Assembly (NCBI GenBank): GCA_020851115.1
Contig: JADZDJ010000126.1
Span: 1 to 32,453 of the forward strand
DNA length: 32,453 nt
From: Pirellulales bacterium
Lineage (GTDB): Bacteria; Planctomycetota; Planctomycetia; Pirellulales; JADZDJ01
Direction of reading: 5' to 3'
Under the pieces are notes generated by a model. That model was given only the letters and a program-made list of their open reading frames with translations. It did not search any database and was not told the DNA's origin. Shown piece by piece: positions 6,714-23,497 of the stretch. Positions within the stretch are counted from its first letter, which is position 1. The number at the start of each line of letters is the position of its first letter. The translations under genes were made by a program, and so were the position numbers.

Positions 6714-6792
6714 GAAGGGAGGTAGGCGATAAATGGTAGTTAGTCAGCGGAGAATTGTTGCCCGATTACCGCAAACTGCCTACCGCGCATCA

Positions 6793-7695
6793 TTAGCGAA
6801 GTTGAATCGTCATCGTGGGTTTCATGCCGATGCCGGGGCGCAGCAGCCAGTGTCCGCCATTGTCTTGGCGATTATCGATTTCGGCATGCACGCGCTGGCC
6901 TGTCGCAGTGACTTCGGGGTCGACAAAGACGATGTTGCCCGTGAATGTCGCTTTCTGGCCGCCGACCAGTTCGACTTCGACGACCACGGGCCGATCGATC
7001 AATTGACCTGGACTGGCGTCTTTGTGATCGACGTAGCCATCGACGCGAAGCCGATCCATGCGGATGATGCGAAAGACCGTATCGCCGGGTTTGACCCACT
7101 CGCCGAGGCTGGGCTTCACTTGCTGCACGACGCCGTCGATGGGGGAGGTAATCTTGCGCCGTTGGATGCCGACATCGGCCGCTTCGGCTTCCGCCAGCTT
7201 GGCGTCGGCGGTGAAGCTATTCACGATCTGCTCGTTTTTCGCTTGTTGAATGGCATACAGCGCGCGTTTCCATTGAAACTTCTTCTGCTCCATTTCGACT
7301 TGGCTGACTGCGCCGGGAGTTTTCTGGTTCGCTTCATCCGAATGACGATAATCGTATTCGGCCACCTTTGCCGCGGCATCCGCATGCAAAATATCGATAT
7401 CGCTGTCGGCCTTTTGTTTGGCGGCGCGATGCTCGGCAATGGCGACTTGCTTTTGCTTTTGAGCTTGGGCGTCATCAATCGTTGCCAGCAGGTCGCCCGT
7501 GCGCACATGAATTCCTTCGCGAACGTTGATCGTCGTAATCCGTCCGGCCTCTTCGGCGGGAACTTGCGCTTGACCGGTGATCGAAACCGGCTGCACGCGG
7601 CAGTCAGGAACGATCAGCGTGTCCGAGTTGGGCTGCGCATGGGCCGCGGAAACGACGCCAAGGAACAGGACCAACATCGAAAATCGAGTTTTCAT
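6793..7695 (-). CDS. Periplasmic HlyD-family (membrane fusion/adaptor) protein
   Basis: The 300-residue exported protein has a classical signal peptide (MKTRFSMLVLFLGVVSAAHA, cleavage after residue 20). It then shows the adaptor plan: first half of the lipoyl domain (AGRITTINVREGIHVRTGDLLATIDD), a long coiled-coil hairpin rich in K, A, Q and E (about 75-175), the second lipoyl half (RRKITSPIDGVVQQVKPSLGEWVKPGDTV, an ASPIDGxV-like motif), and a beta-barrel with a GIGMKPTMTIQLR tail. I chose the ATG at 7695 because GGGAGA lies 5-10 bases upstream and the signal peptide starts there; a longer frame to 7728 lacks this. It sits between the two membrane-anchored adaptor hybrids and is probably co-transcribed with the M50 hybrid downstream. 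No TM beyond the signal peptide is seen, so it would work as a soluble periplasmic partner. Confidence 0.87.
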   Translation of the reverse strand: MKTRFSMLVLFLGVVSAAHAQPNSDTLIVPDCRVQPVSITGQAQVPAEEAGRITTINVREGIHVRTGDLLATIDDAQAQKQKQVAIAEHRAAKQKADSDIDILHADAAAKVAEYDYRHSDEANQKTPGAVSQVEMEQKKFQWKRALYAIQQAKNEQIVNSFTADAKLAEAEAADVGIQRRKITSPIDGVVQQVKPSLGEWVKPGDTVFRIIRMDRLRVDGYVDHKDASPGQLIDRPVVVEVELVGGQKATFTGNIVFVDPEVTATGQRVHAEIDNRQDNGGHWLLRPGIGMKPTMTIQLR

Positions 7696-7748
7696 CGTTG
7701 TCTCCCAAAGTATTCCCGCCGCGGCCACGCCGCGATATTTACGCGGCG

Positions 7749-7768
7749 GCCGCCTAACGGCGGCTTTT
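7749..7768 (+). terminator. GC-rich hairpin with T-run (doubtful terminator)
   Basis: GCCGCC-TAAC-GGCGGC is followed by TTTT on the plus strand. Genes on both sides lie on the minus strand, where the T-run would precede the hairpin, so a terminator role for them is unlikely. It may instead be a 5' leader hairpin of the HlyD-like gene. Confidence 0.2.
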
Positions 7769-7901
7769 CAACGTCGAGCGGAAACTGAATTGCAGCATCG
7801 CTCGGTCATTCTTGATGCCGCATGGCTTGCGGCACACACTAGTTTCGGCTTGGCAATCGCCTTTTTACCAATTGCAACAGCCTTCATGGATCATTCGCTG
7901 A

Positions 7902-9950
7902 CTACCAGCGGAAGAAGATCTTCGACTGAATAAACTCAAAGACGTCGTGGAACCAACAGTAGCCCAGCGAGCGGCGGCCGCAATTGATTTTCGCCGAAAC
8001 GGCCGCATCGGGTCGCATCACATCGTCGCTCATCTCGCCCTTATTGATCGTCACGCGCACTTTCACGGTATTGCCTTCTTCTTGAACGACCTCGGCCGAT
8101 TCTTCGATGTCCTTGATCGTCCCGTACAGCGTGCGATTGGGATCCGTGGCCAGGATGTAGCTAACCTTGAGATCCTCTCTACCACTGGCATGTTGAGCGC
8201 GCCGAATGTGTCCCATGCGGTCTTCCGGCATTCGCACCTCAAGCTCCCAGTCTTGGGAAGTATCGGCGACGCGCAGCAGCACTTCGCCGCGACCTACCGG
8301 ACGGGCGTTGAGTTTGTCTTTCGGTTTCCAGGTAACGACGGTTCCGTTGATCGGGCTTTTGACAATCAAACTGTTTTTTTTGCTCTTGAGCAGTTCCAAT
8401 TGCCTTTCCAAGCTACCGCGCATCTGCTGTGCTGCTTGGCGTTCACCTTCAATGCGGACGCGTTCGAGTTCTTGGTCGTCGCCCTGCCTGGCCATGTCGA
8501 GCGTCGCAATTCGCCCTGCCGCGTTGGCGATTTTTTCGGCGCATTCGCGGATTTTGCCGTTGATGTCGATGATTTTCGTGTCGATTTCGGTGCTGTCGAG
8601 TTTCACCAATTCTTGACCGGCAGCGACGGTCTGGCCGTGTTCGACGAGCACGTCCGTAACAATGCCCTCGTCTGGCGCAAAAACCTCTCGCTGCACAACT
8701 GGCTCCAACGTCCCTTTGCCGTGTAGATCGAAATCGGCGGGAATCAAGAACAGAGACAAAACAGCAGCTAGCACAAGCCCTACCACCGCGAGGGTTTTCG
8801 GCAGCATCCGCGCGCCGACCAACACTTTCGACTTGCCAATCGTTCGCCAGACGGGCATCAGGAACAAGTTGTTGTGTTCCAGCGCGTTGCCGAGAGCGAC
8901 GCTGCCGTGCTCCGCCACGACGTCGATCCGGCGGCGCATGGCGGCAGGGATGCCGTCGGTATTGATTTGCTCGACGATCAAGGCACCGACGAAGTCGGGT
9001 GTACGATCGGGATGCTCTTTGATTTCTTCTTCATCGCGCGGCTTGGCCAGCGGCAGGACGACAATGTTCTTGGAGTGCGATTCATCGACGTAGGCTTCGA
9101 CGGCTTCTTCGATTTGCGGCGCTAAATCGCGCGTGTCGCCAAGATACCAGAGCGGCTCTCCGGCTTTCACCACGACGGTTGCCAGCTTGCCCAGCAACAC
9201 TACCGTGTTCGACCGCTTGTCGAACGTTTCTTGGCCGCTGACGGCTTCGATCGAGCAGCGCCCGCCTCGGCGAATGGCGATCGAGACGCGATCCGACTCG
9301 ATCAGCCGCCGGCCTTCATTGGCGATTGCATAAGCCGCGGCCCGCGGTTCCAGGCTGCTGTGGGCTACGCGAGTGAATTGTTCCAACTGCGTCCAGATCG
9401 CCTGCCGGTCGGTAAATAGCCGAAGTTGGCGAGTTTTGAGAAAGTCCTCGGCAACCTCGCACATCTGCTTGACGAACGTCAAATAGCCGCGCTGCACTGC
9501 GGCGCGGCTGCCGGTGCGCTGAAACACTTCGACCAGGCCGCGAACTTCCTGATCGCTCTTCAAGATGCCGCAGACCAACAGTAAATCAGTCGGGTTGGCG
9601 ACGTCGTCTTCCGGGTTGGTGTATTGTGGCTGCACAATCGCATCTTGCCCACCGTCGAGAATTTTTCGCAGCAGCTTGCCGTGACGCTGTTGGTCTTCCG
9701 GCTTTTCGACCAATCCTGTCTCGCCCAAATTGAGATGCGAGCTAAGGGTCAAATGGCCGTCGTCGTCAAACGTCCAAACAGCCCCGCCAATCGCGGCCAA
9801 GGCGGCGACGATCCGATGGAGAAACCCTTCATAGAATTCTTCGGGCGTAACCTCCGAGCGCGCAAGGCTTTCGATCTCGCGAACCAATCCGCGTATCTGC
9901 TGCCGCGTCTGATCGACGGCTTCCGGTTGATAAGATTGCTCGGTGCTCAT
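7902..9950 (-). CDS. GAF-domain / HlyD-family hybrid membrane adaptor
   Basis: The 682-residue protein joins a sensory N-terminus to an export adaptor. Residues about 35-175 and about 185-360 look like two GAF-type domains (AIGGAVWTFDDDGHL... and the second with RLIESDRVSIAIRRGGRCSIEAVSG, ending in GALIVEQI... VALGNALEHN). A single TM helix follows (386-404), then lipoyl half one (VFAPDEGIVTDVLVEHGQTVAAGQELVKLD), a coiled coil, lipoyl half two (SLIVKSPINGTVVTWKPKDKL), a barrel and a hydrophobic-aromatic C-terminus. The GAF part would be cytoplasmic and the HlyD part periplasmic, so a cytoplasmic signal could control an export complex; this is inference. The ATG at 9950 is preferred; a GTG six codons upstream (9968) is possible. 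It is the promoter-proximal gene of the adaptor cluster. Confidence 0.85.
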   Translation of the reverse strand: MSTEQSYQPEAVDQTRQQIRGLVREIESLARSEVTPEEFYEGFLHRIVAALAAIGGAVWTFDDDGHLTLSSHLNLGETGLVEKPEDQQRHGKLLRKILDGGQDAIVQPQYTNPEDDVANPTDLLLVCGILKSDQEVRGLVEVFQRTGSRAAVQRGYLTFVKQMCEVAEDFLKTRQLRLFTDRQAIWTQLEQFTRVAHSSLEPRAAAYAIANEGRRLIESDRVSIAIRRGGRCSIEAVSGQETFDKRSNTVVLLGKLATVVVKAGEPLWYLGDTRDLAPQIEEAVEAYVDESHSKNIVVLPLAKPRDEEEIKEHPDRTPDFVGALIVEQINTDGIPAAMRRRIDVVAEHGSVALGNALEHNNLFLMPVWRTIGKSKVLVGARMLPKTLAVVGLVLAAVLSLFLIPADFDLHGKGTLEPVVQREVFAPDEGIVTDVLVEHGQTVAAGQELVKLDSTEIDTKIIDINGKIRECAEKIANAAGRIATLDMARQGDDQELERVRIEGERQAAQQMRGSLERQLELLKSKKNSLIVKSPINGTVVTWKPKDKLNARPVGRGEVLLRVADTSQDWELEVRMPEDRMGHIRRAQHASGREDLKVSYILATDPNRTLYGTIKDIEESAEVVQEEGNTVKVRVTINKGEMSDDVMRPDAAVSAKINCGRRSLGYCWFHDVFEFIQSKIFFRW

Positions 9951-10256
9951 TGGCACGATCCGGCCCACCCTTCAGTTTAGTATCGAATGCCCTCGGCACG
10001 TTCGCAAGGTCCGCAATACCAACCAGTTCGGTAAAATCGGCAGCCGGGTTCCGATTGTCCGGTTTGGCGCCGCTTGCAGACGAGCCATGTTGCAATCATA
10101 GGCCGCAGGCGCACGAAAAAGCGGCCCGATCCTAACTACGATACGGGCCGCTGTGCGTTTTGGTCTGACGAAAGTGGCGTAATGCTGCTGTGGGACGGGC
10201 ATTTTTCCCGAACTGGCAGGTTTCCAAGCCTGACCCACCGAGAACCTCTTGGCCGC
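9951..10256. other. Intergenic region between the adaptor cluster and the barrel gene
   Basis: These 306 bases contain the rho-independent terminator of the barrel gene (10116-10152) and presumably the promoter of the GAF-HlyD gene. No promoter with good boxes was recognised. Confidence 0.5.
10116..10152 (-). terminator. Rho-independent terminator of the BBP7-like gene
   Basis: A perfect 9-bp stem, AGCGGCCCG/CGGGCCGCT (10120-10128 with 10144-10152), encloses a 15-base loop. On the minus strand it is followed at once by a T-run (complement of the A-run 10116-10120). It lies about 105 bases beyond the stop of the barrel gene, so that transcript should end before the adaptor cluster. Confidence 0.75.
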
Positions 10257-11642
10257 TTACCATTTCGCTGTCAAACCGCCGCTGATCCCGTGGATGATCA
10301 AGTTCCGGCCGCCATGCACTTGCGTACCAGCCGCCGAATTTACGTTGAAATCGAACTGCTGTGTGCCGAGCGCCAAGCGGTTGATGAAGATCACATCGTA
10401 GCCCGCCTGAATCGAGAACGTCGGCCCGAGTGGAAATACAGCCCGCGCATTGAGTTCCGAAACATATGCGACGTCGCTATTGGTGCCGCTGGCATCGCGG
10501 AATGGATTATCGAATCCTTGATTGTCGGTGATCATCTGATGCTGGAAGCTGGCGTTGCCGTATATCCCCGTCTTGGCGACGAAGTCGAAGTTCACGAGGC
10601 CGAAGGCTTCGTATTGGCCGAGAACGCCGATCTGTCCGCCGTAGAGCCGATTGATGCAATCGACATTGTACCGGCCGATTCCGGCCGCGTCCGTGTCTTG
10701 ACCGACAATCGATGCATCGTCCGAGACTTCGACGTAGCGAAACCCGGCCAGGAATTGCAAGCTGCTCCAAGGATAGATGACGTTCGCTTCAAAACTATGG
10801 AAATCGGTGTTCGAACTGACCGTCATTCGATCGGCGCCAAAGAATGATGGGGTATCTGGATTGGCGGCCAAGGGGAACGGCACTTGAAGATTGTTATTGC
10901 CGCGCGATGTGTTCGATGCGTCCATATTGTCGGTCTGAAGATAGATAAACTGTGCGGCAATGCCGCTCGGCCCCATATATGTCAGCCAAGTTCTGAAGCC
11001 GGGTTCGTACTCGTAGTGCAGTTGTTGGGCCGAAAACAAGGTGTTGTCGTTATTGGTATTAAAGACCAACCCACGGTCCGGTTCGTGCTCGCGTCGGTAA
11101 TAAACTAATTCTGCACCGGCCGACCAGCACGAGCCCATTTTGCCGGGGAACCCTCGATTTTCGCCGTGCAACCAAGCCCACAGGCTGTGCAGATAACCGG
11201 GATGACCGGCGTTGTTGCAGTAGGGGTCGTTGCAGTAACCTTCGCTGGGGGCACCGCCGGAGTATCCTTCGCCATATCCCTGACCAACGTTGGCAGCGTA
11301 CTGTTGAGCCGGAGTCATGTCGCCTGCAGCGCCGCCGACCGCTTCTTGATACGCGGCCATCTGGGCCGCGTGCATTTGTTGACCATAGGGGTTGCTGCCG
11401 TCTTGGTACGGACGGCCGTTATAGAACAGCAGCCCGCCATCGTCGCTAACGCCGCGCGGCAGTTTGGGCCTGGGCGGCGCGGGAATCGCGGCATGATATT
11501 GGGCCGCACCCGGAAAAATACCTGGCGGAGTGCCGCCTGGGGTCATTGCATTGGGCGCGTATCCATAGGGATTTTGGGCACTGGCGACGATGGTCATCGC
11601 GGCCATCCAAGTGCTGGCCAGTGCCAAAGGCAAACGTCTCAT
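10257..11642 (-). CDS. BBP7-like outer-membrane beta-barrel protein
   Basis: The 461-residue protein starts with a signal peptide (MRRLPLALASTWMAAMTIVASAQ). A Pro/Gly/Tyr/Ala-rich low-complexity segment follows, about 25-160 (NPYGYAPNAMTPGGTPPG, then cysteines in CNDPYCNN), and then a beta-rich domain of alternating aromatic strands (TWLTYMGPSGIAAQFIYLQTD, SSLQFLAGFRYVEVSD, FDFVAKTGIYGNASFQH, FSIQAGYDVIFI). It ends in an aromatic residue (GGLTAKW), usual for outer-membrane barrels. This matches the planctomycete BBP7 barrel family by style. I chose the ATG at 11642 for its signal peptide and a GGAG Shine-Dalgarno 9 bases before. A longer frame (to 11834) has a non-hydrophobic extension. It is on the same strand as the adaptor cluster but separated by a terminator. 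Confidence 0.82.
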   Translation of the reverse strand: MRRLPLALASTWMAAMTIVASAQNPYGYAPNAMTPGGTPPGIFPGAAQYHAAIPAPPRPKLPRGVSDDGGLLFYNGRPYQDGSNPYGQQMHAAQMAAYQEAVGGAAGDMTPAQQYAANVGQGYGEGYSGGAPSEGYCNDPYCNNAGHPGYLHSLWAWLHGENRGFPGKMGSCWSAGAELVYYRREHEPDRGLVFNTNNDNTLFSAQQLHYEYEPGFRTWLTYMGPSGIAAQFIYLQTDNMDASNTSRGNNNLQVPFPLAANPDTPSFFGADRMTVSSNTDFHSFEANVIYPWSSLQFLAGFRYVEVSDDASIVGQDTDAAGIGRYNVDCINRLYGGQIGVLGQYEAFGLVNFDFVAKTGIYGNASFQHQMITDNQGFDNPFRDASGTNSDVAYVSELNARAVFPLGPTFSIQAGYDVIFINRLALGTQQFDFNVNSAAGTQVHGGRNLIIHGISGGLTAKW

Positions 11643-12091
11643 CGGTGATCTCCACCCCGAATTGCGGGAAGCTTGTTTGTCGCCGAACGGTTCGGAATCG
11701 ACAAATCGGCTGAGTTGGCGGGGGAGCTGGGCCGGTGAGGCACCGGGTGCATCACCAGACGATGTTGGCGCCGATAGCGCCGTCCAATGGATAAGGCCCC
11801 CCTTACCACCGTTTTCATCGGTACGACCGGCCATTCAACTCAATTGGAAAATGCCGTACCGGCGGTAAAGACGGCAAACTTTGGCAGGTTGGGCGATAGT
11901 TTAGGGAAGGTACAATGACTTTTCCGGTGCGTTGGCAACCAAGTCGGCGGCAGCTTGAAAATAGTCCGTTGAAAGCGTAGGGAAGGCCAACTTCCAGATG
12001 CGACATTACTTGATTTGCGAGCACGGCAGCCGGAAACTGATAGCAGAGTCGCGAAGCCGACAAGTTTTCTACCGACGTCGAATTCAATGCC
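11643..12091. other. Divergent intergenic region
   Basis: These 449 bases separate the minus-strand barrel gene from the plus-strand small helical gene. They should contain both promoters. Only small features such as the hairpin GGCGC-CGATA-GCGCC near 11770 were seen, and no good promoter boxes. Frames crossing it have no recognisable product. Confidence 0.4.
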
Positions 12092-12430: not shown

Positions 12431-13249
12431 ATGTACTACCTCGATCCTCACATCCACATGGTTTCGCGGACCACGGACGACTATGAGATGCTCGCCAAGA
12501 TGGGCTGCGTCGGCATGAGCGAGCCGGCGTTTTGGGCGGGGTTCGACCGCGGCAGCGTCGATGGCTTTCGCGATTACTTCCGGCAGCTCACGGAGTTCGA
12601 GCCGAAGCGCGCCTCGTGGTATGGCATCGCGCATTTCACTTGGCTCTGCATCAATGCCAAGGAAGCGGAAAACGTCAAGCTGGCGCGCGAAGTGATCGCG
12701 ATGATTCCCGAATTCATTCATGCGCCCGCCGTATTGGGGATCGGCGAAATTGGTCTGAATAAAAACACACGTAACGAATCGATCGTCTTTTTAGAGCATG
12801 TTCAGCTTGCTGAGCAACTTGGTGAGCAAATTCTCATCCACACGCCGCACTTGGAAGACAAGTACATGGGCACTCGGATGATTCTCGACATGCTGGCCGA
12901 CTTTCCAAAACTCGATCGTCGGCGAGCTTGTGTCGATCATGTCGAAGAGCACACGATTCGACATGTGTTGGAAGCAGGCTATTGGGCGGGAATGACCCTC
13001 TACCCCGTCAGTAAATGCACTCCGGAACGGGCCGTGGACATGGTCGAAATGTACGGCCCCGAGCGGCTGCTAGTGAATTCAGCCGGCGACTGGGGTCCGT
13101 CGAAGCCGACGGCGGTGCCCGATTTCATCTTGGCGATGCGGAAACGGGGCCATGCCGAATCACTCATCCGGCGGGTGGTTTACGAAAACCCGCTGAGCTT
13201 CTTCAGCCAAAGTCGCAACTTTCGGTTCACGCCGCCGGAAAGGGCCTGA
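12431..13249 (+). CDS. TatD-like metal-dependent hydrolase (amidohydrolase fold)
   Basis: The 272-residue predicted cytoplasmic TIM-barrel hydrolase has a complete set of TatD-type metal ligands: H7 and H9 (DPHIH), E106 (IGEIGLN), H137 (IHTPH), H170 (VDHVEEH) and D220 (NSAGDWG). The opening DPHIHMVSRTTDDYEMLAKMG resembles the TatD-like hydrolase of ebo-type clusters rather than canonical TatD DNases; I recall this from family knowledge and could not verify it. The rest of an ebo cluster (UbiA-like or dehydroquinate-synthase-like genes) is not in the window. It follows the small helical protein by 72 bases. Substrate is unknown. Confidence 0.8.
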   Translation: MYYLDPHIHMVSRTTDDYEMLAKMGCVGMSEPAFWAGFDRGSVDGFRDYFRQLTEFEPKRASWYGIAHFTWLCINAKEAENVKLAREVIAMIPEFIHAPAVLGIGEIGLNKNTRNESIVFLEHVQLAEQLGEQILIHTPHLEDKYMGTRMILDMLADFPKLDRRRACVDHVEEHTIRHVLEAGYWAGMTLYPVSKCTPERAVDMVEMYGPERLLVNSAGDWGPSKPTAVPDFILAMRKRGHAESLIRRVVYENPLSFFSQSRNFRFTPPERA

Positions 13250-13646: not shown

Positions 13647-16600
13647 ATGTTTCAGCGATCAGACGTAAGCGGCAGTTTCAAGTCTTTGCGGCTCCGGCGG
13701 CGAGGCGCGCGGCGAAAATACCCTGGCCAGCGGATGATTGCTCGTCGCACCGCTTGCGAAGCGCTGGAACCACGCAATCTGCTGACCACCACTTTGTTTA
13801 TCGATTTCGGCGAAGGCTTTGCCGGCGGCAAGATGCTCACGACAGTGGGGCAATTGCAGGGGGTCGCCATTGGGCCAGATTTAGGATTACCGGGGACCGA
13901 CGTGTTGGAATTCCAGTCGCTCCGCAGCGAGATGTCGAAGGTCAAATTCGACTACAACGCCGATGGCTTAGGCGGAACGAATTCCGACTACACCTTCCTG
14001 AAAAGCACGATCATGGAGACGGTTGCCCGGATCTATGAGCCTTTCGACGTCGACGTGAAAGAAGCCAAGGCACGAAGTATCTTCGATGTCGTGTCGGCCT
14101 TTAATCTCAACACCTTCGATCCCACCGGCGAGCACGATGCGTACGTCTTTGTCGCATCGATTATCGATACAACCGTTGGAGAGAGCATCACCGACCTCAT
14201 TGGGATTTACGGGATCGCATCGGGAATCGACCTGACCAGCGGGCCGGGAGGATTGCCGGGAAACAACGAAACCGATGAATCGGTGGTGGTTTGTGCAGAC
14301 GCAGTCTTAGAGGACTCCAGCAGGTTGGGATTCGACGCCGGCGCGGCCATGTCGAACGTCGTCGCGCACGAAGCCGGGCACACGTTCGGGCTGCGGCACA
14401 CCGTTGGTGTCGCCACACCTCTGGTTCCTGACCAGGCGCTGCAGAACCAGTCCGACATTATACGTGCTGGCGGTGACAACCCGCCGGTCAATTTGTTCAA
14501 TATCGGCATGATCACGCGGTACAACTTGATGGCCGACTATGACGCCTTGGGGACTAATATTAATCCTCTCGTCACCGTCAACTCCTACGAAAAGCTAGCA
14601 AGTGATCCCGACATTGGTTTGAACCCCGACTTCGGCGAATATGTGACGGGCACCGGCGCGTTCGACGATATCAGCATCACGCGAGTCAACGACACGACGG
14701 CGCTGGTTTCGGTGCAGACCTATCGCGATTCTTCGTTCTCGTTTAACGCGGCGATCGATGCCGGGCCGAACACCTACTTAATCGATTACACCGGCGGCAT
14801 CGTGGTCGATACTGGGCGCAGCAGCGACCGGATCGCCATCGATTCCGCGCTGGGCGTGAACATTACCGTGCGCGGTAGCCAGGGGGATAACGAACTCACG
14901 GTTTTTGCCAACGGCAATCCGAACGTGACCTTCACTCCCGAAGCCGACCCCGCGTTTGTGCCGGGCATCCCGGGGGCTACCAGCGGACGGATCGTAACCA
15001 CCGGAGGAGGATTTGGGACGACCACAATCGACTTCACCGAAGTCACCTCGAATAGCCGCGTGGTGTTGGATGGCTTCAACAAGTTCGACTACCTAGGGCC
15101 GCAGACGGGCAGCCTCAACTTGTCCATGAGCGGTGCCTCGATCACCGGCAAGGTCAATGGGCCGCAAGGCACGGTGGGAATCGTCGGCGTACGCTTCATT
15201 GACGTGGCGAACGTGACGATCGACACCTCGGTGGTCAATCCGGCCGAGAGCATCGATACCAACGACCAACTTGTCATCACGGGCGCCGGATTCGCCGCCC
15301 CAGGCTTGCAGAACTTCACCTTCACTCCCGGCCGGGGCAACGATACGCTGGTACTCGAAGCCCCCAACTTTACCTTGCCGGTGCTAGGGGGCGCATTTCT
15401 CTACGACGGCGGCAGCGGCAACAATACCATCGCCACCAATTCGGACACTAGTTTCATCTTGAACGACGGCAGTCTGGAAAGCACCAGCGGCGGTGTGGTG
15501 CAACTGATGCGCGTTGAGCTGGCGCGGCTTGCCGGCGGCGCGGGCGACAATTCGTTCTACGTTCAGACCTGGGCGGGCACAGGCTCGATCTTTGGCCTGG
15601 AGGGCGACGACAACTTTGTTTTTGGCGCAGGGGCGGACATCGACACGTTTACGGGCCAGTTCACCGTCGATGGGGGCGATGGAAACGATACGCTGACGCT
15701 CGACGATTCGGCCACTTTCGACACCGTCAATTACAATATCGGCGAAACCCGCGTTGCCGGCGACGACACGACGCCCACTCCCTTTGGCCGCATCTACTGG
15801 GAACCGACGCTCGACAATCTGGTCATGACCGGCACGCTGGGAAAAAATATCGACTTCGTGACTCCCAGCAAATTCTTGACCATCAAGATCGATGCACTCG
15901 ACCCGCCCAGCGGCACTCCACCGCTGGATGGCGATCAACTCAGTATTTTCTTCGGCGACGCCGCGGGGCGTCGGCTGATCGACCGCGGCACGGGCAACGG
16001 CATCTGGACCTTCACCAGCGGCGAGAAGGAGATCTACTTCGAGAACATCGAGTTCATGGGCTCGTTGGTTGCAGCCGCCGCCGAGGCCGGCGACGGCAGG
16101 CCGCTGGTGAAAGTGTACAACTCGCTGACTAACGAGCTGGTCTATAAGTTTTACGCCTACGACCAAGGCTTTAAAGGTGGCGTTCAGGCAACCATGGCCG
16201 ACGTCAACGGCGACGGCATTCTCGATGTGATCGTGGCGCCGGGTGCGGGGCGCAGCGGCGAAGTCAAAGTCTTCGACAGCGCTTTGATGCAAGCACTGGC
16301 GGCGTTTGATCCACGGAAGCTCGTCGAATCGCCAGATGCCGGCGCGCAAATTGGACCGTCGATCTTCCCCGAAGGCGTCGGTTATCGCAGCGGGCTACAT
16401 GTTGCCGCGGGTGACGTCGATGGCGACGGCGATATCGACGTGATCACGTCGCGTGACACAGGACGCGGCAAGATTCGCGTGTACGAAAAGACGGCCGCCG
16501 ATACCTATCTCCGCACACTAACGTTCACCCCCTATAGCAAGAGCGAAGGCGTCACCAAAGGCGCAGTCCTCGCCGTCGGCGACGTCGATGGCGACGGCCG

Positions 16601-17048
16601 CGACGAGATTGTTACAGCGCCCGGTGCCGGAGCATCGGCACGAATTAAGGTTTGGGAAGGCGAAAGCGGAGTTCGCACGCGGCAATTCTTTGGCTTCGAA
16701 TCGCGATTCAGAAATGGCGTTTCGCTGGCAGTCGGGGATGCCGATGGCGACGGCCGCGATGAAATTTTTGTCGCCGCAGGAGCCGGTGGCGGATCGCGCG
16801 TCCGAACGTTCAGCCAATATGGAACCTTGAGGAATGAATTCAAAGCCTATAGCAGTGGAAACACCAATGCTCCGGTTCAATTGGCCGCCCGCGCCAGCGA
16901 CCCGCAGGACAAAGTGGCGCTCTATACCGCTCAAGGCAACGACGGTCGTACCAGCGTCATTCGCGTGTTAAATCCGCTCACCGGCACGACGGTCGATTCG
17001 TTCTTCGAAACCGATCCAGATTTCGGCGGCGGCATTGCCATGGGCTAG
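13647..17048 (+). CDS. Exported LEPR-xLL protein with an intact metzincin site and FG-GAP-like repeats
   Basis: The 1133-residue protein has a basic N-terminus then LEPRNLL (40-46), the planctomycete export/anchor-type signature. The N-terminal domain carries AMSNVVAHEAGHTFGLRHT: H241, E242, H245 and H251 form the metzincin zinc/catalytic motif HExxHxxGxxH. M295 in YNLMADY lies where the Met-turn should be. Beta-rich regions follow, including degenerate Ca-binding-like repeats (DGGSGNNTI, EGDDNFVFG, DGGDGNDTL). The C-terminus has four FG-GAP/VCBS-like repeats with DxDxDGxxD-type sites: DVNGDGILD, DVDGDGDID, DVDGDGRDE and DADGDGRDE. It is likely surface-exposed or secreted with protease activity. 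I chose the ATG at 13647 because the basic signal region starts there; the frame remains open upstream. No Shine-Dalgarno is evident. It has a paralogue at 20087-23497. Confidence 0.87.
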   Translation: MFQRSDVSGSFKSLRLRRRGARRKYPGQRMIARRTACEALEPRNLLTTTLFIDFGEGFAGGKMLTTVGQLQGVAIGPDLGLPGTDVLEFQSLRSEMSKVKFDYNADGLGGTNSDYTFLKSTIMETVARIYEPFDVDVKEAKARSIFDVVSAFNLNTFDPTGEHDAYVFVASIIDTTVGESITDLIGIYGIASGIDLTSGPGGLPGNNETDESVVVCADAVLEDSSRLGFDAGAAMSNVVAHEAGHTFGLRHTVGVATPLVPDQALQNQSDIIRAGGDNPPVNLFNIGMITRYNLMADYDALGTNINPLVTVNSYEKLASDPDIGLNPDFGEYVTGTGAFDDISITRVNDTTALVSVQTYRDSSFSFNAAIDAGPNTYLIDYTGGIVVDTGRSSDRIAIDSALGVNITVRGSQGDNELTVFANGNPNVTFTPEADPAFVPGIPGATSGRIVTTGGGFGTTTIDFTEVTSNSRVVLDGFNKFDYLGPQTGSLNLSMSGASITGKVNGPQGTVGIVGVRFIDVANVTIDTSVVNPAESIDTNDQLVITGAGFAAPGLQNFTFTPGRGNDTLVLEAPNFTLPVLGGAFLYDGGSGNNTIATNSDTSFILNDGSLESTSGGVVQLMRVELARLAGGAGDNSFYVQTWAGTGSIFGLEGDDNFVFGAGADIDTFTGQFTVDGGDGNDTLTLDDSATFDTVNYNIGETRVAGDDTTPTPFGRIYWEPTLDNLVMTGTLGKNIDFVTPSKFLTIKIDALDPPSGTPPLDGDQLSIFFGDAAGRRLIDRGTGNGIWTFTSGEKEIYFENIEFMGSLVAAAAEAGDGRPLVKVYNSLTNELVYKFYAYDQGFKGGVQATMADVNGDGILDVIVAPGAGRSGEVKVFDSALMQALAAFDPRKLVESPDAGAQIGPSIFPEGVGYRSGLHVAAGDVDGDGDIDVITSRDTGRGKIRVYEKTAADTYLRTLTFTPYSKSEGVTKGAVLAVGDVDGDGRDEIVTAPGAGASARIKVWEGESGVRTRQFFGFESRFRNGVSLAVGDADGDGRDEIFVAAGAGGGSRVRTFSQYGTLRNEFKAYSSGNTNAPVQLAARASDPQDKVALYTAQGNDGRTSVIRVLNPLTGTTVDSFFETDPDFGGGIAMG

Positions 17049-17206
17049 CGATAGCAGATCAGAAAGGTTGCAATGGATAGGCTGGTTGGAAAAAGTGCGA
17101 TGGCTGCCCGCGGCCGCTGGCATCGAATCCTTGAAATAAGGCGGTTGGGAGCAGCCGTCACTGCATGACCCTTGAAAACTGAGCTACGACTCAATTTACA
17201 GTGAAT

Positions 17207-17235
17207 TTGACTCATTTGCCCCCATCCGGTATACC
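17207..17235 (+). promoter_or_regulatory. Sigma70-like promoter of the M8-like gene
   Basis: TTGACT (17207-17212) and TATACC (17230-17235) are separated by exactly 17 bases, about 33 bases before the start codon. The short leader contains the strong Shine-Dalgarno GGAGGAG (17255-17261). This supports separate transcription of the M8-like gene from the upstream metzincin gene. Confidence 0.55.
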
Positions 17236-17268
17236 GAGAGAAGCCCTTGCTATTGGAGGAGACGGGAC

Positions 17269-19635
17269 ATGAAGATGCGTAACTGGCGGCGCTGGCGGCC
17301 CTCGGCCCGTGAGGCTGGCCGCGTCCGGTCTGCCGCCGTTGAAATGCTCGAACCGCGACTGGCGCTGAAGTGGGCGGGCGTTCCCCCGGCTTCGATCGCT
17401 CCTCCAGTCGTTTACACGGATGTAGTGCTCGATGCCGACAGCGACGCGACGGGTACGGCGGCGATCACCAGTAGCGAGATCGACTATTACAAGTTCCAGG
17501 CTTCCTCGACCGGCCCCTATGTGATTTCCGCCACCACGCCATCGAGCAACCTGAACCCGATCCTTGGCGTCTTTTCCGCCACCGGATCGCGGATTACTTA
17601 CAACGACAACATTTCGCGTCGGAACCTCGACAGCCGGGTTGCCGTCAACTTGCAAGATGGCGTGACCTATTTTGTTGGCATCACCAATCGCAGCAGCTCG
17701 TCGCACGGATCGTATACCTGGAAAATCGATGGCTTATGGCCGAGTCTACCCGACGACTCGTACGAGCAAAACGACTCGTTCGCCGCGGCTTCCGACCTGG
17801 GCACGCTCGACTCGGAAACCACGATCGGCAACCTGGCGTTGCGGGACCAAGCAGATTGGTTCAAGTTCACCACAATCAACACCGGCGAGGTTGCCCATTC
17901 GGTTTCGATTGAGTTCGAACATCGCCGCGGCGATTTGGATTTGGATCTCTCGAACGATCTGGGTGAAGTCGTCGGACGTTCGAGCAGCCGCGGCAATGTC
18001 GAATCGATCTCGCTCGCCGGGCTGCCGGCGGGTACGTATTACCTCCGCGTCTTTGGCTATCAGGGCGCCGTCAATCCGAGCTACCGGCTCTCGATCGATC
18101 CACCTACGGAAGCTCCCCCCTTGCCGACAGTCGATTTGTTCGGAAGTTTGCTCAAGCTGGATAGCGGCGTGAGTTGGGAGCAAGCCCTCCCGGTTCAAGC
18201 GGTCATCCAAAATGCCGGTTCGACCGACGCCGGGGCATTCAATGTCAAGTGGTATCTGTCGAAGGACGCCAAATTCTCCTCCGGCAGCGACATTTTGCTG
18301 GAGCGCACACCGGGTGGCGGCGATTCGTACCGAGTCTCTGGCGTTTCGGGAGGAAGCAACAGCATTGTCATCTCGGTCAATTTGCAATTACCCGAGCAAC
18401 CCACGGGCTGGGATGGAAAATTGTACTATCTGGTGATGGTCACCGACTCGGACGGCGAAATCACCGAAATGTCTGAAAACAACAACGGCGGCCAGATCGG
18501 CGGCGGCTTCGACAATCGCGCTTTGGCCTTTGGCCGCAAGGTCCGGCTGCCCAATGAAGGGTTTGACATCGATCTCTCGATGAAGGGCCTGACCGTCAAC
18601 GAAGAGGCGTTTGTAAAAGCGGCCGCGTACCGCTGGGAAGAAATCATCACGGGCGACTTGCCAGATCTTGTCGTGCAATTCCCCAGGCCCGGCGATTCGA
18701 AAATTCTGGACGATCTGCTGATTGGCGTCAAACAAGACACGATCGACGGCCCAAGCACCATTTTGGCGGTTGGCGGCCCCTCAGACCCGCGCGGAGTCGA
18801 TTGGAACAGTTTGCCGTTTTCCGGAAACGTGATCTTCGATCGAGCCGACATCAGCGATTTGGAACAGAGCGGCGATCTTTATTATGTGGCGCTGCACGAA
18901 ATCGGCCACGTTCTAGGTTTGATCACCATATTCCCATCGCTGATCGCGCAAGATGACCAAGGCAACAATATCTTCACCGGCCCTCAAGCCACTGCCGAGT
19001 ACGTCATGCTGTTCGGTCTCGATCCTGCAGAGACAAAAGGCGTGCCCCTCAGCGGCGCGCACTGGCCGGAAGACCTCTTTGGCGACGAGTTGATGACCCC
19101 GAACCTCAATTCGCCTAGCCTGATCTCGACCATCTCAATCGCGGCGCTGGCCGACATGGGATACAAAGTCGATTTGACGAAGGCCGACCCATGGACGGCG
19201 CCAGCCTCTGCCGCGTCGTCCGGTTCGCTGCCGGGCGGAGGGGTCGCCGGTCAATATGCCGTCACAGCGGCCTCGCCTGCGGCGGGCGCGGATGCCGGCG
19301 CTCCACAGGGTTTGTTGGGTTCCACGTTGCTGGCTTCCTTGGCATCAAATTCGACTTCCATTGCGCCGTCGGCCGCGCTGGCGATTTCGTTGCCTGGCTC
19401 CGCGAACGCTGAACCGATCAAGAATTTCGTTCCCCGCGCCGCTGGGCTTTTGCGTGACATGGAACGGCCGATCGATGACTTGCAGCTCGAGCGCGCCATG
19501 CCCAGTGCGTCGGAGGTCGATTCGCTGTTGGCGGACACGACGGAAGACGGCGATCGTTCGACATCGAATCACTCGCACGACGCCGACGAAGCGCTGCTGC
19601 TTGAGTGGCGGCTAACGACGATTTGGGAAGCCTAG
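17269..19635 (+). CDS. Exported LEPR protein with PPC and CARDB-like domains and leishmanolysin-like (M8) peptidase
   Basis: The 788-residue protein starts with a basic leader and LEPRLAL (27-33). Two PPC-like beta domains follow, about 46-155 and about 160-285 (YYKF, DWFKFTT, AGTYYLRVFG). A CARDB-like domain covers about 290-405 (VIQNAGSTDAGAF..., ITEMSENNN). The peptidase domain has HEIGHVLGL with H543, E544 and H547. A distant H598 (GAHW) and M609 (ELMTP) are 11 residues apart, the same spacing as the third zinc ligand and Met-turn of leishmanolysin (from recall: H334, M345), and SIAALADMGY resembles that family's following segment. The C-terminal tail (about 645-788) is Ala/Ser-rich. The zinc site looks complete. 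GGAGGAG precedes the ATG. The non-catalytic PPC/CARDB domains sit N-terminal to the protease, which is unusual. Confidence 0.87.
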   Translation: MKMRNWRRWRPSAREAGRVRSAAVEMLEPRLALKWAGVPPASIAPPVVYTDVVLDADSDATGTAAITSSEIDYYKFQASSTGPYVISATTPSSNLNPILGVFSATGSRITYNDNISRRNLDSRVAVNLQDGVTYFVGITNRSSSSHGSYTWKIDGLWPSLPDDSYEQNDSFAAASDLGTLDSETTIGNLALRDQADWFKFTTINTGEVAHSVSIEFEHRRGDLDLDLSNDLGEVVGRSSSRGNVESISLAGLPAGTYYLRVFGYQGAVNPSYRLSIDPPTEAPPLPTVDLFGSLLKLDSGVSWEQALPVQAVIQNAGSTDAGAFNVKWYLSKDAKFSSGSDILLERTPGGGDSYRVSGVSGGSNSIVISVNLQLPEQPTGWDGKLYYLVMVTDSDGEITEMSENNNGGQIGGGFDNRALAFGRKVRLPNEGFDIDLSMKGLTVNEEAFVKAAAYRWEEIITGDLPDLVVQFPRPGDSKILDDLLIGVKQDTIDGPSTILAVGGPSDPRGVDWNSLPFSGNVIFDRADISDLEQSGDLYYVALHEIGHVLGLITIFPSLIAQDDQGNNIFTGPQATAEYVMLFGLDPAETKGVPLSGAHWPEDLFGDELMTPNLNSPSLISTISIAALADMGYKVDLTKADPWTAPASAASSGSLPGGGVAGQYAVTAASPAAGADAGAPQGLLGSTLLASLASNSTSIAPSAALAISLPGSANAEPIKNFVPRAAGLLRDMERPIDDLQLERAMPSASEVDSLLADTTEDGDRSTSNHSHDADEALLLEWRLTTIWEA

Positions 19636-20086
19636 GGATCAACTCCAACCATCGACAAATCGCGGCACAAATTGCCTGCCGACCATCGGCAGGGCGTGCT
19701 GAGGCTGTGTTTCGTCCGACCGAGCGAAGCCCTGGAACCCAAAAGGCAAATGGTTGGCCGGCTTCGTCACCTGGCGGAGCTTTCCGCAGATATTGATCTG
19801 GAAATTCAGGCCGTCAACTCAATTTCATTCTTACTCTTGCCCGCAAAAATCACTTGACAGCCCGCCTTACCCTAATGAGACTGAGAGATACGTAGCCGAT
19901 AGGGGCGCTGCGCACCAGGAATGAGCTTGCCTGCCGGAACATCTTCTCTGCAAAGTCTGCGGCATCGATGGCGCCCAACCCGGGCGGCAGTGCCGAGCGC
20001 TTGAACTTCATGGAGGGGACAGGCAATTTCGATCCATTCCACTCGACCCACTGCATCGATTTCTTTCCTTCCACGCGGTACACACC
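19636..20086. other. Gene-free stretch between the second and third LEPR genes
   Basis: These 451 bases hold the hairpin at 19675-19693 and a TTGACA at 19854-19859 that lacks a good -10 at 16-18 bases. No gene is supported; frames crossing it have no recognisable product. The third LEPR gene therefore probably has its own, unrecognised promoter. Confidence 0.4.
19675..19693 (+). terminator. Hairpin after the M8-like gene (possible terminator)
   Basis: CCTGCCGA-CCA-TCGGCAGG forms a perfect 8-bp stem about 40 bases after the stop codon. There is no T-run, so intrinsic termination is uncertain; it could stabilise the 3' end instead. Confidence 0.35.
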
Positions 20087-23000
20087 ATGGCACTGGAACA
20101 GCCCGGCATGCTTTCGTCTTGGATCTCTCAACTTCGACATCGCGGTTCGAAGGGCTTGCGCACGTCGGCCGATAGCCGCCGCGCTCGATTTCGCCGTCCC
20201 CCGCTGGCGATCGAGTCGCTCGAACGCCGAGAGCTGATGGTGAGCCGCGTGTTTTTGGATTTTGGCAACGGGTTCACGACACTGGGGAGCGGCGTGTTCA
20301 CGGGCACGACGATCATGGACTTCAAGGGCGAAGATTTAACGGAGAAGCTGGGAGGGGCGGCGGCTGCCGCCGGCAACGGATATACATCGTCCATCGGCGC
20401 ATTTGCCCCGGGCGACTACCGAATGGTGGGCTTCAGCGACGTCGTCAACGTGCTCAGCTCCGTGACCGTTACGACCGATCCGCTCATTCTGGAGCGCGCC
20501 ATTTCTCGACAAATCAGGCGCGCCTTGGAACCGTTCGATATTCAAGTGATTTCCTCCATCGATGGTCTCAACGACACAATTCCAGAACCGACGTTTTTCG
20601 GCTTCCCGTCGGCGGACCTCGACCAAGCCAATGCCTTGATTTCGCTCAACGAAATTGCCGCCGATGATGATGACGACACCGCCAATGCCACGGTGCCGCA
20701 ATTTGGCGCCGATGATGTCTATCTGTTCTTTGGCGGGCTATACGCGCAAGAAGACGAGGTTTTGATTCCGCTCAATATTCCGCTGACGGCCAAGTTTGGC
20801 GTCGAAGTCGAATCGCAAGGCTCGCTGCCCAATCGGCTCGATTCCGGCGGCATCGTGGACGTCAACTTCTGGATCAATCGCGTCCTCGGTCCGACGGGCA
20901 CTGGCGGTACGCTCAACACCGCCATGGCGAATGCCGCGATGTACATCACCGGCTGGGATTACGGTCTGGTCGAGGTGGAAGACGGCAAGCGCGGGCAGTA
21001 CACGCAATATTTCGATTCGGATACGCGGCTCATCGACCAATCTAGCGCGATGGTCGAAGCCGGCTGGACCGAATCCTTTGTCGACTACTACAGCCCCGAC
21101 GGAGTTGCCAAGCCGATCAGCGATCAACATTCGGCGTACTTCAATCGCAACTCGTTGATGCAAAACGGCCTCGACTTCCATCAGCTCTTACGGCAGGGCA
21201 CGCTGGGCAATCCGCCGGTCTTGAATGTGCCGGGATTTCCGCTGCCGCCGCCAGGTTTTCCGGAGTTTTCTCCGCCGACCTACACGATCAATACCGATCC
21301 GAACGTTCGAGTCAGCCTGTACGACTTGCTGGCCAACGATCCCGACATTGGCCGCAATCCCGATGTACAGTACGTCACCGGCACCGGAGCATTCGATCGC
21401 ATTCGGATCCAAAAGCTCGATGGGAATCGCGCATCGGTTTCGATCCAATCGTATCGCGATTCGAATTTCAACGGCTTGATCCAGGCGAACTCGTATACGA
21501 TCGACCTGTCGAAAATCATTATCCCTGGCCGCCGCGACTCGGGGCAGCCCTTCCGCCTGATCATTGAGGGGTGCAATAGCGACGATCAAATATTTCTGGA
21601 TGATCGACTGGGCGTGCAGGTGGTGGTCCACGGCGGGCCGGACCTCGAACGGTTGATGATCAGCGGCAGTGGCGTCGAGAACGTTCAATACACCGCCATG
21701 GGATCCGCCGTTGATCCATTCCATGAGCAATTAATTCCCGAGTTGTTGCTTCCCGCGGCGGCCGGGCGGATGGTGATCACCGGTCGGTTCGGTTCGACGA
21801 CGGTGCTAGTCGATCAATTCAACCCGATGAACGCCAGCGCCGTGCGGCTGGATAACTTCAATTCTCTCCAGTACAACTTGCCCGGGTACTTGAATAGTGA
21901 CTTGAATGTGACGGTTCCACGTTCGGGAGAATGGCGAATTGCCGGTACGCTAGACAACCCCTTGTTTCCGATTCCTGGCTTTCCGACGCCGCACGACGCG
22001 TCGACAGGTAAACTGGATTTTACCCAGATCGGGCATCTGGTGGTCGATACATCCCTCGGCACGGCGGACGACAACCTTACGTTCAGCACCGATGCCGCGC
22101 TGCCGCCGGGACTGACGAGCGTCTTCATCTCGATGGGGGGCGGAATCGATCACTTGACGTTCGACGATAGCGGCAATCTAGCCAACCTCGACTATTTCCT
22201 CTCGCCGACCGAGGTCGATTATGGGACGGGAGTCTCGACGAAGTTCACCGGATATGGCTACCACTGCGTACAACAATTGACGGTCAATGGTACGCAGGGG
22301 GGCAACGACTTCGTCGTAGTTCCCAGCACGGTGACCGAAATGCGCATTAACGGCGACGACCCACCCAGTGGTTCGTTCGGCGAAGATTCGCTGACGATTC
22401 GCCGCTCGGGAATTAGCGGCGCGACAGTCACGCCCAACGGCATTGGCAATGGCACTTGGAGCTTTACCAGCGGACACAAAGACATCGTTTTTACCGGCAT
22501 CGAAGAGTTGACTGCGCCTCCGGCGATTGTGGCCTTGACCGGCGCGTCGGACACGGGCCGGGGGCAGCCGCTGGTCAAAGTCTACGAAGCGGCCAGCAAC
22601 GAATTGCTCTACAGCTTCTATGCCTATCCAAGATCGTTTCGCGGCGGCGTGCGCGTGGCCGTGGGCGACATGAACGGCGATTCGACGCCTGACCTCGTTG
22701 TGGCCCCCGGCGCGGGCCGCGGCGATGTGAAGGTATACGACGGAGCGCTACTGCAAACGATGGCCGATGCCGATGCGTTTGTCGCCGATCCAGATTCGGC
22801 ACTGCTCGACACGTTTATCCCGGAAAGCGGCAGCTATCGCAACAAGGGGCTTTTCGTGGCCGTCGGCGACATCGATGGCGACGGCGACAACGACATCGCC
22901 ACTTCGCGTTCGCGCGGCCAGACGATGGTCCGCGTTTTCGACAACGACGGCACGGGCTTCTTCAGCCGCTTGACGGCTTGGCGGCCCTACAGTACGAACG

Positions 23001-23497
23001 TCGTCTCCGGCGCGGCAGTCGCGGTGGCCGATCTCGACAACGATGGACTGGCGGAGGTCATCACGGCGCCTGGCGCTGGTGTGAAAACGGAAATCCGGGT
23101 TTTCGACGGCTTCGGCGGCGGACTGATTCGCAAATTCAACGCCTTTGAAAGTTCGTTCCGTAACGGCGTCTCGCTGGCTGCCGGAGATGCCGACGGCGAC
23201 GGCAAAGCCGAGATTTTTGTCGGCGCAGGCATCGGCGGCCGATCGCGGGTGCGAATGTTCTCGCCCCTCGGCGACTTGAAAGAGGAATTCCGAGCCTATA
23301 CCAGCGGCAACGTGAACTCCCCATTGAGAATTGCGACCGTCGATCCCGACGGTGCAGACCGCGTGCTGCTGTTTGTCGGCCAAGGCAACGACGGTAGGTC
23401 GCACCGCATTCGCCTGTTCGATCCGCTCACGGGTAATCGCATCGATGAATTTCTCGAGCGCGATCCGGCCTTTGACGGCGGAGTATTTCTCGGTTAG
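20087..23497 (+). CDS. Exported LEPR-like protein, pseudo-metzincin paralogue with FG-GAP-like repeats
   Basis: The 1136-residue paralogue of the metzincin at 13647-17048 has a basic leader and LERRELM (45-51) in place of LEPRxLL. The same layout follows: an N-terminal domain, a conserved segment (YDLLANDPDIGRNPD versus YEKLASDPDIGLNPD) leading into VTGTGAFD, beta-rich middle, four repeat sites (DMNGDSTPD, DIDGDGDND, DLDNDGLAE, DADGDGKAE), and the ending FDGGVFLG (versus FGGGIAMG). At the zinc site the aligned stretch AMANAAMYITGWDYGLVEV (279-297) has Y286, I287, W290 and E296 where the paralogue has H, E, H and H. The fold looks conserved but it cannot bind zinc in the metzincin way. It is probably a binding or structural protein. 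The ATG at 20087 has no Shine-Dalgarno; M8 is an alternative. Confidence 0.86.
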   Translation: MALEQPGMLSSWISQLRHRGSKGLRTSADSRRARFRRPPLAIESLERRELMVSRVFLDFGNGFTTLGSGVFTGTTIMDFKGEDLTEKLGGAAAAAGNGYTSSIGAFAPGDYRMVGFSDVVNVLSSVTVTTDPLILERAISRQIRRALEPFDIQVISSIDGLNDTIPEPTFFGFPSADLDQANALISLNEIAADDDDDTANATVPQFGADDVYLFFGGLYAQEDEVLIPLNIPLTAKFGVEVESQGSLPNRLDSGGIVDVNFWINRVLGPTGTGGTLNTAMANAAMYITGWDYGLVEVEDGKRGQYTQYFDSDTRLIDQSSAMVEAGWTESFVDYYSPDGVAKPISDQHSAYFNRNSLMQNGLDFHQLLRQGTLGNPPVLNVPGFPLPPPGFPEFSPPTYTINTDPNVRVSLYDLLANDPDIGRNPDVQYVTGTGAFDRIRIQKLDGNRASVSIQSYRDSNFNGLIQANSYTIDLSKIIIPGRRDSGQPFRLIIEGCNSDDQIFLDDRLGVQVVVHGGPDLERLMISGSGVENVQYTAMGSAVDPFHEQLIPELLLPAAAGRMVITGRFGSTTVLVDQFNPMNASAVRLDNFNSLQYNLPGYLNSDLNVTVPRSGEWRIAGTLDNPLFPIPGFPTPHDASTGKLDFTQIGHLVVDTSLGTADDNLTFSTDAALPPGLTSVFISMGGGIDHLTFDDSGNLANLDYFLSPTEVDYGTGVSTKFTGYGYHCVQQLTVNGTQGGNDFVVVPSTVTEMRINGDDPPSGSFGEDSLTIRRSGISGATVTPNGIGNGTWSFTSGHKDIVFTGIEELTAPPAIVALTGASDTGRGQPLVKVYEAASNELLYSFYAYPRSFRGGVRVAVGDMNGDSTPDLVVAPGAGRGDVKVYDGALLQTMADADAFVADPDSALLDTFIPESGSYRNKGLFVAVGDIDGDGDNDIATSRSRGQTMVRVFDNDGTGFFSRLTAWRPYSTNVVSGAAVAVADLDNDGLAEVITAPGAGVKTEIRVFDGFGGGLIRKFNAFESSFRNGVSLAAGDADGDGKAEIFVGAGIGGRSRVRMFSPLGDLKEEFRAYTSGNVNSPLRIATVDPDGADRVLLFVGQGNDGRSHRIRLFDPLTGNRIDEFLERDPAFDGGVFLG

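Follow-up and report, generated by a model that had tools for sequence, protein, structure and literature searches.

A metzincin paralogue without its zinc site beside a predicted active protease in a Pirellulales genome

Within the window, the whole 32,453-nucleotide stretch of Pirellulales DNA that was analysed, two large paralogous genes lie on one strand and encode a predicted active zinc protease, protein A, and a protein of common architecture, protein B, that has lost all three zinc-binding histidines together with the catalytic glutamate. The dead site is found in further members of the family as well, and the observation is for that reason stronger than the preliminary description of the locus had stated. 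The best reading, given a probability of roughly 0.6, is that B is a secreted pseudo-metzincin working without catalysis, as a structural or ligand-binding module of a surface or matrix protein.

Protein A (13647..17048, plus strand; 1133 amino acids) opens with an LExR start (LEPRNLL) and continues into a metzincin domain at residues 46-305 (13782..14561, plus strand), delimited from its AlphaFold model and structural matches. The intact zinc site, HEAGHTFGLRH, occupies residues 241-251 (14367..14399, plus strand) by sequence and multiple alignments. After the domain, BLASTP and alignment locate a conserved YxxLAxDPDIGxNPD...VTGTGAFD block (14583..14666, plus strand); the protein further comprises a beta region and a C-terminal FG-GAP region (16095..17045, plus strand). 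In protein B (20087..23497, plus strand; 1136 amino acids) the same architecture is met, with a LERRELM start, a pseudo-metzincin domain at residues 52-400 (20240..21286, plus strand), again from the AlphaFold model and structural matches, a YDLLANDPDIGRNPD...VTGTGAFD block (21320..21397, plus strand; BLASTP and alignment) and an FG-GAP region (22562..23494, plus strand). Pfam recognises four FG-GAP stretches in each protein, where a seven-bladed set would have seven repeats. Both reading frames are intact, and homology between the two proteins is beyond chance, as BLASTP matches the C-terminal 486 amino acids at 43% (327 bits, E 2e-98) and gives a second match of 100 bits around YxxLAxDPDIG..VTGTGAFD. 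The BLASTP homology, the four FG-GAP stretches and the LExR starts bear out the earlier claim of an architecture shared throughout, and the 1136-residue frame confirms that the B gene is full length. Neither protein reaches the Pfam cut-offs for protease families. The sub-threshold scores of A against PF13582, PF13583, PF13688 and PF00413 span about 20 residues around the zinc motif, while B has no match at all to the Pfam reprolysin- and matrixin-like metzincin models, and no NCBIfam model matches either protein.

The loss of the site in B is seen when homologues are aligned together. The zinc residues of A, correctly numbered in the preliminary description, are H241, E242, H245 and H251. In alignments with 8, 16 and 23 homologues, the HEAGHTFGLRH segment that contains them stands opposite YITGWDYGLVE of B (residues 286-296; 20942..20974, plus strand), running Y286-I-T-G-W290-D-Y-G-L-V-E296, and the orthologues of B read YAIGWD[YF]GLSE. 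The HExxHxxGxxH zinc motif is thus present in A and absent from B and its orthologues. Comparison of a profile of 11 active domains with a profile of B-type domains alone (probability 98, E 3e-13, 241 columns) pairs E242 with I287, H245 with W290 and H251 with E296 and leaves H241 in a gap, so that the placing of Y, I, W and E at the zinc-site positions of B is upheld by the multi-homologue alignments, with the first position gapped in the profile comparison. Since HExxH occurs nowhere in the B sequence, the loss does not depend on a single alignment column. BLASTP of A against B gives no alignment across the protease region, and a two-sequence MAFFT alignment pairs HEAGH of A with a different and wrong stretch of B; pairwise comparison alone is thus insufficient to settle the pairing, and the doubt that it would raise is overturned by the multiple alignment of homologues.

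Metzincins usually carry a methionine in the Met-turn. This turn reads E[LVI]MSY in G372, G293, G793 and C29, the last being the other active member of the window's genome, and the multiple alignments place there SDIIR of A (residues 269-273; 14451..14465, plus strand) and SSAMV of B (residues 319-323; 21041..21055, plus strand). The A segment, aligned with EIMSYQ, EVMSYL and SDMMR of relatives, has isoleucine for methionine; about half of the active relatives have isoleucine too (DVIRVG) and the others methionine (EIMSYQ). Alignment with relatives rules out NLM in A and SLM in B, which had been proposed as the Met-turn.

Both A and B are predicted to adopt the metzincin fold. The AlphaFold model of the A domain (pLDDT 85.4, pTM 0.89) is best matched by adamalysins and archaemetzincins, with Z about 11, some 155-160 residues aligned and an rmsd of about 3.5, and A is predicted to be an active protease. 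For the model of the B domain (pLDDT 73.1, pTM 0.82), all 50 structural matches listed are metzincin-type zinc proteases at a middling Z of 6.0-8.8. Foldseek alone returned no match to the B model with E below 0.001, and the metzincin matches from a profile search of solved structures were weak. In model numbering the site helix spans 186-201 in A (histidine at 196) and 225-240 in B (tyrosine at 235), within the same order of elements, and its start is the same relative to H241 and Y286. The structural comparison suggested at the outset therefore yields two metzincin predictions with corresponding helices across the site, of which the B model is the less certain, being pulled towards the active fold by the active relatives in its input alignment.

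To place B among its relatives, homologues were gathered from the window's family, order, class and phylum, the largest alignment and tree holding 23 sequences. Seven members are dead, comprising five from the window's family and one each from G014 and G871, whose dead sites read ARVAARNFGLGNA and AQAAAQSYASTIS, respectively. Every one of the 16 homologues outside the dead set, drawn from at least six families, keeps HExxHxx[GST]xxH. Since the dead proteins are nested among these motif-keeping homologues, the loss is the derived state and B descends from an active form, which contradicts the alternative, raised beforehand, that B never came from an HExxH ancestor. A search of named Planctomycetota records with the active members gave 12 loci; 11 reach the site and are all active, several of them probably the same genomes as those already sampled, and one ends before the site. 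A contig search of the named records with an alignment of the window-family proteins gave no relatives. A dead-only profile recovered no further clear dead member in 346 genomes of the order and 327 of the class, and a weak match in G069 proved a false lead, an enolase-like protein.

Within the window's family, B-type proteins occur in the window's own genome and in G001 and G002, which represent a sister genus, and they form a clade with 100/100 support across the two genera. The five dead proteins of the family group together with 88-89% support. The AU test rejects neither a group of A with the dead proteins that fill its slot in the sister genus (p 0.0994) nor one clade of all the dead proteins, those of G014 and G871 included (p 0.0975). 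On these trees the number of losses lies between one and three, with three in the best tree. Since dead copies are found also in the sister genus, in G014 and in G871, loss of the active site is either recurrent or old. The dead member of G014 (L207:8900-13453) and the active member of G076 (L212:7194-8288 with L213:3-3407, a gene pieced together by inference from parts at two contig ends) come from one genus, and both adjoin the same BBP7 gene. The last repeats of these two proteins are 65-69% identical, compared with 27% for the protease or N-terminal domain.

Sequence comparison supports B as an intact gene, conserved across two genera and apparently under purifying selection. Full-length B reading frames are present in three genomes. 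The dN/dS check that had been proposed gives 0.16 over the whole gene between the G001 and G002 orthologues and 0.19 between B of the window and the G001 orthologue, values that are rough because saturation of the synonymous sites is close or already reached. The three B proteins agree at 15 of 24 positions of the former site segment, NxAxANAxxYxxGWDxGLxEVExG, compared with 25% identity across the domain, a score that only 13 of 504 overlapping windows equal or exceed. The FG-GAP region of B appears to be in concerted evolution with that of A. For this region a B clade can be rejected (p 0.029), though it has 100/100 support for the N-terminal domain, and within the window the FG-GAP ends of A and B are 51% identical, whereas B matches its own orthologues there at 43-45%. 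The N-terminal domains diverged, while homogenisation between neighbours appears to have kept the display ends alike.

A rival reading takes the pseudo-metzincin domain for a relic or spacer, an inert folded cap for export or folding, with the FG-GAP and beta regions being what matters. The domain is the least conserved part of the protein. Between the G001 and G002 orthologues it is 49% identical and the fastest-changing part, compared with 68-69% elsewhere; some of it may thus be under relaxed constraint and not in a new use, which leaves room for a relic. The contrast between the N-terminal domains and the last repeats of G014 and G076 points the same way, as does a short truncated reading frame upstream of the dead gene in G871 (L206:6500-7250), in which a family-type start, LEEQSLSASMLYVDFG, is followed at once by beta-repeat sequence, an apparent domain deletion. 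However, the dead-site helix of B is among the best conserved parts of the domain, by the counts given above, and all seven dead proteins retain the domain at full length; a relic or spacer is considered unlikely. Similarly doubtful is a broader account in which catalysis would have died repeatedly, in the window's family (f1), in G014 and in G871, with the exported proteins left intact and the zinc site of the B type rebuilt as a conserved aromatic and acidic surface binding site.

Turning to the relationship between A and B, the same tandem pair is found in G001 and G002 with both copies dead. The A slot of these genomes lies immediately upstream of B, behind the same TatD-like gene and HlyD operon, and its dead proteins read AQMAAITYG and AQGAAETWG. 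In G001 a contig end interrupts the A gene, the distal part of which lies at the end of the contig carrying B, and adjacency was deduced from this. When every candidate from an active-profile search of the dead-carrier genomes and G076 was scored, active members turned up in G076 and in the window's genome (A and C29) but not in G001, G002, G014 or G871. The window's genome is thus the only dead carrier in which active and dead members occur together. On the question of whether active and dead pairs recur, the tandem pair does and the combination of active with dead does not.

These results weigh on the proposal that B regulates the active protease A, as its inhibitor, decoy or chaperone or by presenting substrates to it. 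The two genes are adjacent on one strand in the window, their architecture is common, and their FG-GAP ends resemble each other more than B resembles its own orthologues, but four genomes hold dead members with no active family member, both slots of the pair are dead in two of them, and an unrelated gene separates A from B in the window. Since dead members persist without an active relative, the general case of a partner role is removed and the proposal appears improbable; dead members may still act towards unrelated proteases, or locally in the window's species. The preliminary description, which had suggested selection for a non-enzymatic role, with inhibitor, decoy, scaffold and substrate-binding partner as possibilities, is therefore supported in part. 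Purifying selection agrees with the dN/dS values and the dead-site helix, and a scaffold or binding role is the best reading, while the tie to the active protease falls away. Lastly, a new chemistry or ligand site gained by B where the active site used to be, with Y, W, D, [YF] and E as the conserved residues, is very unlikely. The three B proteins show no change or only conservative ones in Y-x-x-G-W-D-[YF]-G-L-x-E-V-E, but the pattern is known from just those three sequences, its bulky aromatics may simply fill the empty zinc cavity, and the A-slot dead proteins, G871 and G014 do not share a replacement motif.

The gene between A and B (17269..19635, plus strand) encodes a secreted metalloprotease-like protein of 788 amino acids with PPC, CARDB and an M8/M10-like HEIGHVLGL motif. 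It does not belong to the A/B family and has copies of its own family elsewhere in these genomes; a possible distant third ligand lies in GAHWPEDLFGDELMTP. This third metalloprotease-like gene of the locus was not mentioned in the preliminary description. In G002 the pair is directly adjacent, with no gene of this type in between. Upstream of A, a TatD-like gene (12431..13249, plus strand) marks the syntenic slot and is 83-86% identical in the same place in G001 and G002. Divergent from the pair is an operon (4476-11834) that comprises, on the minus strand, a BBP7 porin-like outer-membrane barrel (10257..11834), a GAF-HlyD membrane-fusion protein (7902..9968), an HlyD membrane-fusion protein (6793..7728) and an M50 site-2-protease-like/HlyD fusion protein (4476..6713). 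It is present in G001 and G002, where the HlyD operon is 65-67% identical, and in G014 and G076 the family member likewise has a BBP7 homologue next to it. In G002 the HlyD operon and the TatD-like gene are separated by a Ser/Thr protein kinase gene (L208:9024-10880) that the window does not have there. The BBP7/HlyD/M50-HlyD operon is a putative handler of the export or anchoring of A and B, and it is possibly an undescribed planctomycete export system; open-licence papers on HlyD and M50 in planctomycetes contained nothing on such an operon. Elsewhere in the order, genome sequence G007:C1 carries 26-34 FG-GAP-type matches to A and B across the chromosome, a large family of surface repeat proteins.

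Returning to a pseudo-metzincin that works without catalysis, B would have arisen by tandem duplication of an A-like zinc protease, after which the zinc histidines and catalytic glutamate would have been lost and the metzincin fold and FG-GAP display region kept. Most likely B is a surface or matrix protein stabilised by calcium, whose former protease domain may serve as a structural or ligand-binding module, while A would be an active protease on the same display scaffold, and both may be handled by the adjacent BBP7/HlyD/M50-HlyD machinery. Secretion, calcium binding, a role in adhesion or matrix and the route of export are putative. Since dead versions are kept by selection even where there is no active copy, they are probably non-cutting structural or binding proteins rather than partner regulators.

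In animals, dead metzincins with roles in adhesion and signalling are well documented. The locus presents a bacterial family in which active and dead members sit next to each other, and in G076 and G014 two genomes of one genus have kept and lost the site at the same locus. Together with the dead copies that persist without an active relative, this offers an opening to examine why a protease fold is retained after cutting is lost. A caution also follows for annotation, in that large planctomycete proteins of the A/B type should not be annotated as proteases, or as regulators by proximity. Open-licence literature on planctomycete metzincins and bacterial pseudo-metzincins contained nothing on the A/B family and, like the review of the pseudo-ADAMs (PMC11266112), named no bacterial dead metzincin.

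Three known groups invite comparison. The reprolysin- and matrixin-like bacterial metzincins of the four Pfam families named above have the zinc motif and fold common to A and its active relatives, but A scores under every Pfam cut-off and B has no match. The integrin-type FG-GAP beta-propeller proteins of bacteria, whose function is stated as unknown (PMC3192720), have FG-GAP repeats with DxDxDG-type loops, as at the C-terminus of A and B; the integrin type has seven blades, and Pfam finds four repeat stretches in each of A and B. A parallel in kind is with the animal pseudo-ADAMs (ADAM2, 11, 22, 23 and UNC-71; MEROPS M12), in which dead metzincin domains are carried by surface proteins (PMC11266112) and binding is reported to be possible through surfaces remote from the dead site, as in ADAM22-LGI1 (PMC11266112). 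Like B, they combine a metzincin fold with substitutions at the zinc ligands and the general base (for example QTLGQNLGMMWN in ADAM11), within a multidomain protein that in their case is at the cell surface; as with A and B, active and dead paralogues occur within one family, and ADAM22 is among the structural matches of A. Unlike them, B is bacterial and carries FG-GAP repeats instead of disintegrin, Cys-rich and EGF domains; Pfam finds no disintegrin or Cys-rich domain after the protease domain of A or B, only FG-GAP. The likeness is one of fold and not of sequence, B lacking even the histidine-rich pattern. By analogy, B is best read as a bacterial parallel to the pseudo-ADAMs rather than as a member of the ADAM/M12B family.
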